The notes under the pieces: model-generated
What the model was told of the DNA's origin: nothing
The model's input: the letters and a program-made list of their open reading frames with translations, nothing else
The model's database searches: none
NCBI RefSeq assembly: GCF_004337705.1
Contig: NZ_SKBU01000003.1
Location: forward strand, 62,001 to 126,000
DNA length: 64,000 bases
Source of the DNA: Rubrobacter taiwanensis
GTDB taxonomy: Bacteria; Actinomycetota; Rubrobacteria; Rubrobacterales; Rubrobacteraceae
Reading direction: 5' to 3'
Shown here: piece after piece, positions 25,218 through 28,341 of the stretch
How positions within the stretch are numbered: the first letter of the stretch is position 1
Layout of the letters: each line of letters begins with the position of its first letter
Position numbers and translations under genes: made by a program

Positions 25218-26380
25218 ACCGCACCATCCTCCCCGGGAGCACGGTAGGCGTGCTGGGCGGGGGCCAGCTCGGGCGCATGCTGGCGCTCGCCGGGGGGCAC
25301 ATGGGCTACCGGTTTCTGGTGCTCGACCCGGCCCCCGACGCCCCGGCCGGGCAGGTCTCAAGCGGCCAGATCGTGGCCCCCTACAGCGACCGCGAGGCCG
25401 CAAGCAAGCTGGCTACAGCCTCGGACGTGATCACCTACGAGTTCGAGAACGTGGACGCCGGGGTGGCGCGGATGCTGGAGCAGGAGGCCTACGTCCCGCA
25501 GGGGAGCGCTCTGCTCCACACCACCCAGCACCGGCTGCGCGAGAAGCGGGCCGTGGAGGAGGCAGGGGCCCCGGTCGCCCCCTACGAGCCGGTGCGCAGC
25601 GAGGAGGACCTCCGGAAAGCTCTCGGGCGGCTTGGCACCCCCTGCGTGCTCAAGACCGCAACAGGCGGCTACGACGGCAAGGGCCAGCGCGTCATCCGCT
25701 CGGAGGCGGAGGCCCCGGAGGCCTTCTCCGAGCTCTCCGGGACCGAGCTGGTGCTTGAGCGGTTTATCCCCTTCCGGAAAGAGCTCTCTGTCATCGCGGC
25801 CCGCACCCCGCAGGGGGAGGTAGAGACCTTCCCCCCTGCCGAGAACGTCCATGCCGACAACATCCTCCATCTCTCCATCGTCCCCGCCCGCATCCCGCAG
25901 GAGGTGCAGGATCAGGCCCGCCGGATCGCGGTGCGCATCGCCGAGGCGCTCGGCGTGGTGGGCCTCGTCGTGGTGGAGATGTTCTGGGCCGGCGGGGACG
26001 AGATCTACGTCAACGAGCTCGCCCCCCGGCCCCACAACTCCGGCCACTACACCATAGAAGCCTGCCTCACCTCGCAGTTCGAGCAGCACCTCCGGGCCGT
26101 ATGCAACCTCCCGCTCGCCCCGACCACCCTCCTCACCCCGGCGGTCATGGTCAACATACTCGGCGAGCACCTGGAGCCGGTGATCCGGCTTCTCTCCCAG
26201 GGGAAGATAGCCCCCGGCGGCAGCGTGGTGCCGAAGGTCCACATCTACGGCAAGGCCAGCGCGAAGCCCAAACGCAAGATGGGCCACATAACCCTCCTCG
26301 CCCCCGACACCGAAGCGGCCCTCCGGTGGGTCGAGAGGACCGGGCTCTGGGCCTCTCAGAGAGAAGCCGCCCAGACGTAA
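25214..26380 (+). CDS. purK: N5-carboxyaminoimidazole ribonucleotide synthetase
   Basis: A 388-residue ATP-grasp enzyme that makes N5-CAIR from AIR, ATP and bicarbonate, feeding PurE. The start has [17 protein letters not shown]; the ATP-grasp core includes [16 protein letters not shown] and [26 protein letters not shown]. The C-terminus has [13 protein letters not shown] start overlaps the purE stop. A terminator-like hairpin straddles the stop codon. Confidence 0.96.
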
Positions 26381-26387
26381 GGGCGGC
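26366..26387 (+). terminator. hairpin at the end of purEK
   Basis: GCCGCCC (26366-26372) and GGGCGGC (26381-26387) form a perfect 7-bp stem around the purK stop codon, followed by GGTTTCT. The U-tract is weak. The same stem sequence recurs in the cold-shock leader at 58588. Confidence 0.5.
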
Positions 26388-26492
26388 GGTTTCTGCCGGA
26401 TGTTCGATGCGACTGAAGGACCCCGCTCAATGACGCTTGGACGCGCTTCAAGCCCCGTTTCCCGCAGTTCCGGCAGGTTGCCCGACCTACAT

Positions 26493-26521
26493 ATGACAGC
26501 CCGCACGATCGGCGCTATACT
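26493..26521 (+). promoter_or_regulatory. trpS promoter
   Basis: ATGACA (26493-26498), a 17-bp spacer and TATACT (26516-26521). The predicted start near 26528 is only a few bases before the leader-peptide ATG at 26531 and about 150 bases before trpS. Confidence 0.65.
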
Positions 26522-26530
26522 GAGGTTTAG

Positions 26531-26593
26531 ATGATGGATCAAGGTCACACGATCCCGTTCCGCACCGCCCGCCGGTGGTGGCCGCTCCCGTAG
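26531..26593 (+). CDS. trpS leader peptide with tandem Trp codons
   Basis: A 20-codon frame reading MMDQGHTIPF then RTARRWWPLP and a TAG stop. Two adjacent TGG codons (26576-26581) sit five codons from the end, exactly where a hairpin begins, as in classical tryptophan attenuators. Trp is the rarest amino acid, so a Trp-Trp pair in a short leader frame before a tryptophanyl-tRNA synthetase gene is unlikely to be chance. The frame begins 9 bases after the -10 box and would be read leaderless. A second in-frame ATG follows the first. Confidence 0.7.
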   Translation: MMDQGHTIPFRTARRWWPLP

Positions 26594-26611
26594 CGGCCCC
26601 GCACCCCACCG
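26573..26611 (+). ncRNA. attenuator-like hairpin overlapping the Trp codons
   Basis: Inner stem GGCCGCT (26580-26586)/AGCGGCC (26592-26598) with a 5-nt loop, and outer stem CGGTGG (26573-26578)/CCACCG (26606-26611). Both 5' arms contain the Trp codons and an inner 3' arm contains the stop codon. A competing partner AGCGGC lies at 26642-26647, next to a small GCGG/CCGC hairpin (26643-26656) just before the trpS ribosome binding site. No poly-U run is present, so termination would be Rho-dependent or control would be translational. It lacks the GGTGG-ACCGCG T-box signature. Confidence 0.55.
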
Positions 26612-26678
26612 TACGATAATTCCGGAGTCAGGCAAGACTAGAGCGGCTTGTTCCGCCGAGGAAGTCGAAGAGGAGCTT

Positions 26679-27674
26679 ATGGCAGACGAGAGAAAGCGTG
26701 TCTTTTCCGGCATTCAGCCGAGCGGCAATCTGCATCTGGGCAACTACCTGGGGGCTCTGAAGAACTGGGTGGCCATTCAGGAGGACTACGAGAACTACTT
26801 CTGCATCGTGGACCTGCACGCCCTCACCGTCCCGCAGGACCCGAAGGTGCTGCGGGAGAAGATCCGGGAGGTCGCCGCCATCTACCTGGCCGTGGGGCTC
26901 GACCCGGAACACTGCACCATCTTCCGCCAGAGCCGGGTCTCGGAGCACACCGAGCTGGCGTGGCTGCTGAACTGCATAGCCCGCTTCGGCGAGCTCTCGC
27001 GCATGACGCAGTTTAAGGACAAGTCCCGCAAGGAGGGCGCGGAGTCGGCGAGCGTCGGGCTCTTTGACTACCCGGTGCTGCAGGCGGCGGATATCCTGCT
27101 CTACAACGCGCACCTGGTGCCGGTCGGCGAGGACCAGCGCCAGCACCTGGAGCTCACCCGCACGCTGGCCCGCAGGTTCAACCACCTCTACGGCGAGACC
27201 TTCGTGGTGCCGGAGATCATGATCCTGGAGACCGGCGCGCGCGTGATGGCGCTGGACGAACCGGAGGAGAAGATGAGCAAGAGCTCGCCGCGCCCCGCGA
27301 GCTACGTCGCCATCCTGGATGAGCCGGATGTGATCCGGAGGAAGATCCGGCGCGCCGTGACCGACTCCGGCACCGAGATCGTGGCCGCGCCGGAGAAGCC
27401 CGCCATAACTAACCTGCTCCAGATCTACGCCGCCATGACGGAGCGTAAGATCCCGGATATCGAGGCGGAGTACGCAGGCAGAGGCTACGGGGACTTCAAG
27501 AAGGATCTGGCCGAGATCGTGGTCGAGGGCCTCGCTCCGGTCCGGGAGCGGGCGCTGGAGCTGCTGGAGAACCCGGCCGAGCTGGACGAGCTGCTGGAGA
27601 GCGGGGCCGGGCGGGCCCGGGAGGCGGCGAGGCCGAACCTGCACACTGCGTGGGCCAGAATGGGGCTGGACTAG
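26679..27674 (+). CDS. trpS: tryptophanyl-tRNA synthetase
   Basis: A 331-residue class I synthetase that charges tRNA-Trp. The HIGH-type motif is in PSGNLHLGNYLGA (16-22), and KMSKS is at 198-202. Length is normal. AGGAG lies 3-4 bases before the ATG, an unusually tight spacing. The 150-nt leader carries a Trp-Trp leader peptide and alternative hairpins, implying induction when charged tRNA-Trp is scarce. A small winged-helix gene follows after 1 bp. Confidence 0.97.
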   Translation: MADERKRVFSGIQPSGNLHLGNYLGALKNWVAIQEDYENYFCIVDLHALTVPQDPKVLREKIREVAAIYLAVGLDPEHCTIFRQSRVSEHTELAWLLNCIARFGELSRMTQFKDKSRKEGAESASVGLFDYPVLQAADILLYNAHLVPVGEDQRQHLELTRTLARRFNHLYGETFVVPEIMILETGARVMALDEPEEKMSKSSPRPASYVAILDEPDVIRRKIRRAVTDSGTEIVAAPEKPAITNLLQIYAAMTERKIPDIEAEYAGRGYGDFKKDLAEIVVEGLAPVRERALELLENPAELDELLESGAGRAREAARPNLHTAWARMGLD

Positions 27675-27675
27675 C

Positions 27676-27879
27676 GTGGAGGTTAAGGAGAGGATCCTGA
27701 AGATCCTGCGGACGGTGCCGAAGGGCGTGCTCTACTCCACCACCGACTGGCACCGCATCCTGAAAGAGGACAAGCGAAAGATCCGCAACGCACTCAGGGA
27801 GCTGGAAGACGAGGGCCGGATAGAGATCCAAAAGAGCGGCCGCCCCGACAAGCCGCTCTACCGGCTCAGGGAAGAATAG
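27676..27879 (+). CDS. small winged-helix protein
   Basis: A 67-residue basic protein: VKERILKILRTVPKG, then KRKIRNALRELEDEGRIEIQK and a wing ending KPLYRLREE. The helix order and the EDEGRIEI strand fit a minimal winged helix. A GTG start lies 1 bp after the trpS stop, so it is probably co-transcribed and could even be part of trpS control, which is speculation. Its 3' end overlaps an antisense PIN-domain remnant by 14 bp. Family not recognised. Confidence 0.65.
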   Translation: MEVKERILKILRTVPKGVLYSTTDWHRILKEDKRKIRNALRELEDEGRIEIQKSGRPDKPLYRLREE

Positions 27880-27997
27880 AGATCCGCCCAGAGTCCGCCA
27901 GCAGCGCACCCCTCACCGACTCATGGTCCGGATCACGGCGGTTCAGCAAAGCGAGTATGCCGGAGGTGTCCAGGGAGATCAGAGACGCCGCCCCCAC
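27866..27997 (-). pseudogene. truncated PIN-domain (VapC-like) toxin
   Basis: After the antitoxin stop, a frame overlapping it encodes ISLDTSGILALLNRRDPDHE, the canonical first strand and helix of VapC toxins including the first catalytic Asp, then VRGALLADSGRISILP and a stop. The remaining two thirds of the PIN domain with the other acidic residues is missing; the frame runs into the 3' end of the wHTH gene. The GTG at 27997 is the nearest start. It must be inactive as a nuclease. Confidence 0.65.
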
Positions 27998-28209
27998 TCT
28001 GCACGGAGCCAGTCCTCGGAATCCCGGGCGGCCAGCTCCCCATCCTCCCCTATCCCGATGGATCTGAGCACCGGACGCCGCTTCCCGGCCAGATACTCCT
28101 CAATGGCAGCCCTTATGATCTCCGATTGAGATCTCTTCTCCCGGCGGGCGACCTCCCTGAGGGACCGGTGCAGCTCCGCAGGCAGGTAGAGCGTGGTCTT
28201 CTCCATCAT
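27979..28209 (-). CDS. ribbon-helix-helix antitoxin, orphan (VapB/CopG-like)
   Basis: A 76-residue protein with an N-terminal RHH fold: TTLYLPAELHRSLREVARRE and SQSEIIRAAIEEYLA, followed by an acidic C-terminal tail (EDGELAARDSEDWLRAEWG) of the toxin-wrapping type. It overlaps the truncated PIN toxin, so this is a decayed type II toxin-antitoxin pair in which only the antitoxin is intact. Two adjacent ATG codons can serve as start; no ribosome binding site is visible. Confidence 0.8.
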   Translation of the reverse strand: MMEKTTLYLPAELHRSLREVARREKRSQSEIIRAAIEEYLAGKRRPVLRSIGIGEDGELAARDSEDWLRAEWGRRL

Positions 28210-28341
28210 CGCAGCTAAAACGCACCATATATTACATGTGTTTGCCGACTTCAACGGCCGGGGTGGTCATCCGGTTCGGCAGGGCCTAGAGTGTGGGTGT
28301 GCAAGCCAGAACGGGAAGCTCACAGACGGAGGAGAGCGAGA

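Follow-up and report, generated by a model that had tools for sequence, protein, structure and literature searches.

The sole trpS gene of Rubrobacter taiwanensis is probably preceded by a real, conserved Trp leader that would couple its expression to the level of charged tRNA-Trp, as judged from comparison of sequences across the family. This leader is most likely a variant of the Trp leaders already known, pared down to a single hairpin. Its putative sensor half, comprising a short reading frame, a Trp codon, a hairpin that spans the stop codon and a promoter placed for leaderless translation, is borne out by conservation. The output step, by contrast, we infer, because no second structure, U-run or Shine-Dalgarno (SD) switch was found. 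A preliminary description of this DNA had proposed that a stalling leader peptide controls trpS through competing hairpins; the conserved frame, Trp codon and stop-codon hairpin bear out the first part of that proposal, and the competing hairpins do not hold.

Within the window (the whole 64,000-nt stretch of DNA that was analysed), the elements under discussion are the following.

26493 to 26521, + strand: promoter with -35 box ATGACA (26493-26498), a 17-nt spacer and -10 box TATACT (26516-26521), from a pattern search and conserved in relatives
26531 to 26593, + strand: leader ORF MMDQGHTIPFRTARRWWPLP-stop, 20 codons, stop TAG at 26591-26593, from the ORF list, sequence and conservation
26573 to 26611, + strand: outer stem CGGTGG (26573-26578) / CCACCG (26606-26611) around the core hairpin, read directly
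26576 to 26581, + strand: tandem Trp codons TGG TGG, the candidate sensor codons, read from the frame
26580 to 26598, + strand: core hairpin (arms 1:2), GGCCGCT-CCCGT-AGCGGCC, with arms at 26580-26586 and 26592-26598 and the stop codon in the loop and 3' arm
26642 to 26647, + strand: AGCGGC, the competing partner proposed earlier; present here and absent from relatives
26670 to 26675, + strand: Shine-Dalgarno sequence of trpS, GAGGAG, read directly from the sequence; no less or more accessible with the Trp codon occupied
26679 to 27674, + strand: trpS, tryptophan--tRNA ligase of 331 aa (TIGR00233, 359 bits)

The promoter, the 20-codon frame with its TGG pair and stop, and both nested stems thus lie exactly where the preliminary description had placed them. 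A search upstream of trpS for ATGACA-N17-TATACT returned one site, against 0.2 expected from shuffles, and all ten leader-bearing trpS loci of the family share a promoter of the form N-TGA-(A/C)-N, 17 nt, TATACT. In six of these ten (R. taiwanensis, with its ATG at 9 nt, G019, G008, G007 and two loci of G012), the leader ATG lies 9-10 nt past the -10 box, with no room for an SD sequence. Because this distance is so short, the six leaders are probably translated leaderless or nearly so; the mean distance from -10 box to transcription start in S. lividans is 6.3 nt (PMC8079986). The leaders of g2 (G022 and its relatives) and g11 (G010) start 40-47 nt past the -10 box and carry an SD-like sequence. 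In 0.83 Mb of window and family DNA, both strands included, TGA[AC]-TATACT-N9/10-ATG occurs seven times, six times at these Trp leaders and once at the start of greA in the R. taiwanensis genome. There, at L244:1500-1545, the promoter is TTGACA/TATACT and the ATG lies 10 nt past the -10 box, and greA is probably also leaderless.

Conservation carries most of the argument. We compared 39 genomes of the same family (the class-level set consists of the same 39), which supplied 34 trpS upstream stretches. The leader layout recurs before trpS in six genera, at ten loci and as eight distinct leaders, found in the organism's own genus, g9 (two species), g8, g2 (three near-identical loci), g11 and g13 (two loci in one genome); the lack of conservation among relatives that the preliminary description had named as grounds for giving up the idea was looked for and is not what we see. 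Across the 39 genomes, the exact 16-mer TGGCCGCKCTAGCGGC has eight copies; seven precede trpS and the eighth lies inside a histidine kinase gene. Base composition would predict about one copy across all the genomes and 4e-5 across the 34 upstream stretches. A looser 17-mer pattern, one base off for the relatives, returned only noise from the family. The predicted peptides, each followed by a stop, are MMDQGHTIPFRTARRWWPLP, MVVVEPSARSRWWPL, MVASVSVVRFRRWPL, M(VM)REIIFCRFRRWPR, (TTG)DPTPSKDERHPRRWPR, (GTG)VRTSKISDQRLQQWPL, MSGDMDTNRLHRFRWRRRLNS and MSGGEANTNRFRWRRRLIS. All eight distinct leaders have at least one TGG just 5' of, or overlapping, a hairpin arm, and most have one only, so that the tandem TGG does not survive as a conserved feature. 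A Trp codon and pairing across the stop are common to all leaders, and nothing else is. The conserved frame, start codon and promoter spacing suggest that the leader ORF is translated.

The stop-codon hairpin is the only structure that stands out. The stretch from TGG to 12 nt past the stop folds more tightly than dinucleotide shuffles in eight of eight distinct leaders (p 0.002-0.042); the local fold of the R. taiwanensis leader has -13.0 kcal/mol (p 0.012), whereas its whole 166-nt leader shows no excess folding (z +1.0). The core stem is the same in G019, G008, G007, G022/G001/G013 and G010, an invariance so nearly complete that it gives no covariation for or against the stem. Aligning the trpS upstream regions of relatives, as had been suggested, therefore shows the frame and the hairpin to be kept, but neither the TGG pair nor covariation in the invariant stem. 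Two departures speak for an RNA element combined with a reading frame. First, R. taiwanensis has a 3-nt, in-frame insertion in the loop that preserves both frame and stem. Second, G012 has a different stem sequence that is still paired, immediately 3' of its TGG. The outer stem is specific to R. taiwanensis, and the other leaders extend the hairpin differently.

We propose the following sequence of events. Transcription would begin at, or a few nucleotides from, the leader ATG, and 70S ribosomes would translate the 15-21 leader codons. When Trp-tRNA is plentiful, the ribosome would pass TGG, terminate at UAG and depart, and the tight stop-codon hairpin would form. When Trp-tRNA is scarce, the ribosome would wait at TGG with a footprint that reaches about 12 nt downstream, masking the 5' arm and the loop, preventing the hairpin and thereby raising trpS expression. 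Either the hairpin or the untranslated RNA that follows it could cause RNA polymerase to pause and terminate prematurely, in a Rho-dependent or U-less manner, and the stalled ribosome would relieve this effect. The R. taiwanensis genome encodes a rho gene. We lean towards premature transcription termination over other routes as the output, short of calling it probable. The boldest reading, offered as a conjecture that could easily prove wrong, is an attenuator with a leaderless ORF whose single stop-spanning hairpin would serve as sensor and output alike, no competing structure being involved; the position of the ribosome alone would then decide if RNA polymerase, aided by Rho or in the absence of a U-run, passes into trpS.

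Two other routes from a stalled ribosome to trpS can be compared with this one. In the first, which we consider improbable, part of the leader would sequester the trpS SD and a stalled ribosome would free it, as proposed for mycobacterial cysteine leaders. PMC9031893 describes the closest functional analogue, the leaderless poly-Cys ORFs of M. smegmatis, as affecting downstream translation, and in the R. taiwanensis leader GCTCCC pairs with the trpS SD somewhat better than shuffles do, at a marginal p of 0.026. However, leader:SD duplexes in the other leaders are at chance level (p 0.10-0.97), and SD accessibility shows no consistent change across leaders between free, stalled and terminating ribosome states, so the leaders lack the SD pairing displaced by a stalled ribosome that defines a translational attenuator. 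Neither an anti-SD within the leader nor a rut-like spacer rich in C was consistent across leaders, and both candidates were dropped.

The second route also seems unlikely to operate here: a ribosome-mediated transcription attenuator of the classical kind, in which an antiterminator and a terminator hairpin compete, as they do for Streptomyces trpS and trpE. The family leaders have the first half of such an attenuator: a short ORF that carries codons for the sensed amino acid and precedes a related gene, and arms 1:2, of which arm 1 holds those codons, with the stop located between the two arms. This arrangement matches our positive control for arms 2:3 and 3:4, leader L196, which precedes the second trpS gene in a Streptomyces-like genome (MTTRTCTQLWWAA-stop, TGGTGGGCCGCC-TGACA-GGCGGCC), whose TGG- and stop-spanning hairpin is the same as in the family leaders; trpS attenuators have moreover been described in S. 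avermitilis (PMC1262725) and S. lividans (PMC8079986). All four arms were seen in the control, where arms 2 and 3 form a duplex at p 0.02 and the 3:4 region is strongly folded (z -2.3), but neither the antiterminator (2:3) nor the terminator (3:4) appeared in any of the eight family leaders. For arm 2 of these leaders, no downstream partner outdid those in shuffles (p 0.30-1.0), and the sequence 3' of arm 2 is unstructured (z -1.1 to +1.5). Positions 26380-26780 contain no terminator-like site and no U-run terminator, which agrees with the absence of a poly-U run reported earlier, and in G012 just 40-41 nt separate the leader stop from trpS. The AGCGGC once offered as the competing partner is indeed present at its position, but it has no counterpart in relatives; being unconserved, and given that no arm 2:3, arm 3:4, SD or terminator signal was detected, it is not part of any conserved switch. 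The competing-hairpin scheme as a whole is accordingly unsupported. An Rfam scan of the whole window at the gathering threshold matched no family and thus gave neither a T-box, in keeping with the preliminary description, nor a catalogued trp leader. The g2 genomes (L013, L014 and L015) have a strong GGGAGCGC/GCGCTCCC hairpin without a U-run between leader and trpS, and this hairpin is missing from other leaders.

Two more distant explanations dispense with waiting at a hungry Trp codon, and both are very improbable. One is TnaC-like arrest of the nascent peptide at the stop codon, with a conserved W-P-(L/R)-stop as arrest motif. R/Q-R/Q-W-P-L/R-stop does recur across several lineages, but the Pro and Leu/Arg codons are set by the stem (CCGC), and induction of trpS by free Trp would be physiologically implausible; because the G012 leaders end in RRRLNS-stop and RRRLIS-stop and that of R. 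taiwanensis in WWPLP-stop, only the Trp codon is common to all. The other would make the inverted repeat a DNA operator for a trpS repressor and the frame incidental, and while seven genomes share the core as an inverted repeat with almost no variation, we give this little credence against half-sites spaced by 2 bp in relatives and 5 bp in R. taiwanensis, a G012 leader kept without such a repeat, a variable distance from repeat to promoter (the last TGG lies 42 to 89 nt past the -10 box) and a frame, start codon and Trp codon kept in each lineage.

The leader is far from universal. It is absent at 24 of the 34 family trpS loci, and control by it must therefore be dispensable. Its distribution on the trpS tree is scattered and takes at least four changes to explain; because of this scatter we suggest that the leader is an old element that may have been lost repeatedly; horizontal transfer is another possible source of the distribution. 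Many of the loci without a leader have a TAGAAT box shortly before the trpS ATG: a TAGAAT- or TAAAAT-like box lies 6-7 nt 5' of that ATG at L006, L008-L012, L016, L018, L020-L026 and L030-L032, and absence of the leader goes together with a promoter at the start of trpS. In the family members with a box at the gene start, the trpS mRNA itself is probably leaderless. G012 has two trpS loci, L019 and L177, which lie on separate contigs and are each preceded by a leader of the same unusual form, RFRWRRRL-S-stop; duplication and a mixed bin are alternative explanations for the pair. Beyond the family, about 50 other trpS upstream stretches of the phylum contained one clear Trp leader, that before the second trpS of the Streptomyces-like genome, and 79 trpS loci of named genomes, a set that holds no near relatives, contained no convincing one.

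In R. taiwanensis, a whole-genome search (3.0 Mb) gave a single trpS match. The genome encodes two chorismate-binding enzymes, one directly 3' of another gene, and a search of the trpE region found no Trp leader. Two bases 3' of trpS begins a 67-aa ORF (window positions 27676-27879, + strand), which is conserved beside trpS at 25 of the 34 family loci (the others share 58-76% identity with it) and has weak matches to winged-helix Pfam models; its product is probably a small DNA- or RNA-binding protein. Further downstream, positions 27982-28254 on the - strand encode a CopG-type ribbon-helix-helix protein (PF01402, E 1.5e-9) resembling an antitoxin or small regulator.

Several known systems share parts of this layout. 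In E. coli trpL, the Trp codons lie in arm 1 and the stop codon lies between arms 1 and 2, as they do here; the R. taiwanensis leader differs in having no arms 3 or 4, no U-run, a putatively leaderless start and a different target gene. Vecchione and Sello reportedly found in 2010 (J Bacteriol 192:3565) that trpRS1 of S. coelicolor is under ribosome-mediated transcriptional attenuation, but that gene is an auxiliary, indolmycin-resistant copy, whereas R. taiwanensis has only one trpS. A close likeness is trpL2 before trpS in S. lividans TK24 (MMTRTCTQLWRAA-stop), which is leaderless and has one Trp codon, two hairpins and no U-rich stretch (PMC8079986). It resembles the family leaders in its Trp near the peptide end, its leaderless start (probable for six of the family leaders), the sufficiency of a single Trp and the lack of a U-rich stretch, but the Streptomyces leaders have two hairpins where the family leaders have arms 1:2 alone. 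Seliverstov et al. (2005) predicted attenuators of trpS2 and of trp operons in Streptomyces and Corynebacterium, including a Trp leader before trpS in S. avermitilis (PMC1262725). These share UGG codons and GC-rich complementary segments of the type gGCC-rGCy-GGCC with our leader, but have poly-U terminators, whereas R. taiwanensis has no terminator and no third GGCC segment. Finally, Canestrari et al. (2020) reportedly showed that leaderless poly-Cys short ORFs control downstream genes in mycobacteria (cited in PMC9031893 and PMC9094748). Like the family leaders that are probably leaderless, they are actinobacterial short ORFs with amino-acid-specific codons and no clear terminator, but they involve cysteine, runs of codons and other genes, and are not known to have an invariant stop-spanning hairpin.

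A trpS gene under a Trp leader is thus already known in Actinobacteria from Streptomyces (PMC1262725, PMC8079986). With those leaders and the mycobacterial Cys leaders on record, the present finding is a variant and not a new principle. What is distinctive here is the combination of a sole trpS, a single hairpin and near-perfect conservation.

More broadly, this leader would extend Trp-leader control of trpS to Rubrobacter-like Actinobacteria and to a housekeeping synthetase that is the only one of its kind in the genome. The half of an attenuator that senses appears to be retained with hardly a letter changed, and the terminator half known from textbooks is missing. An element this small could allow a direct test of how Actinobacteria use leader ORFs without U-run terminators.
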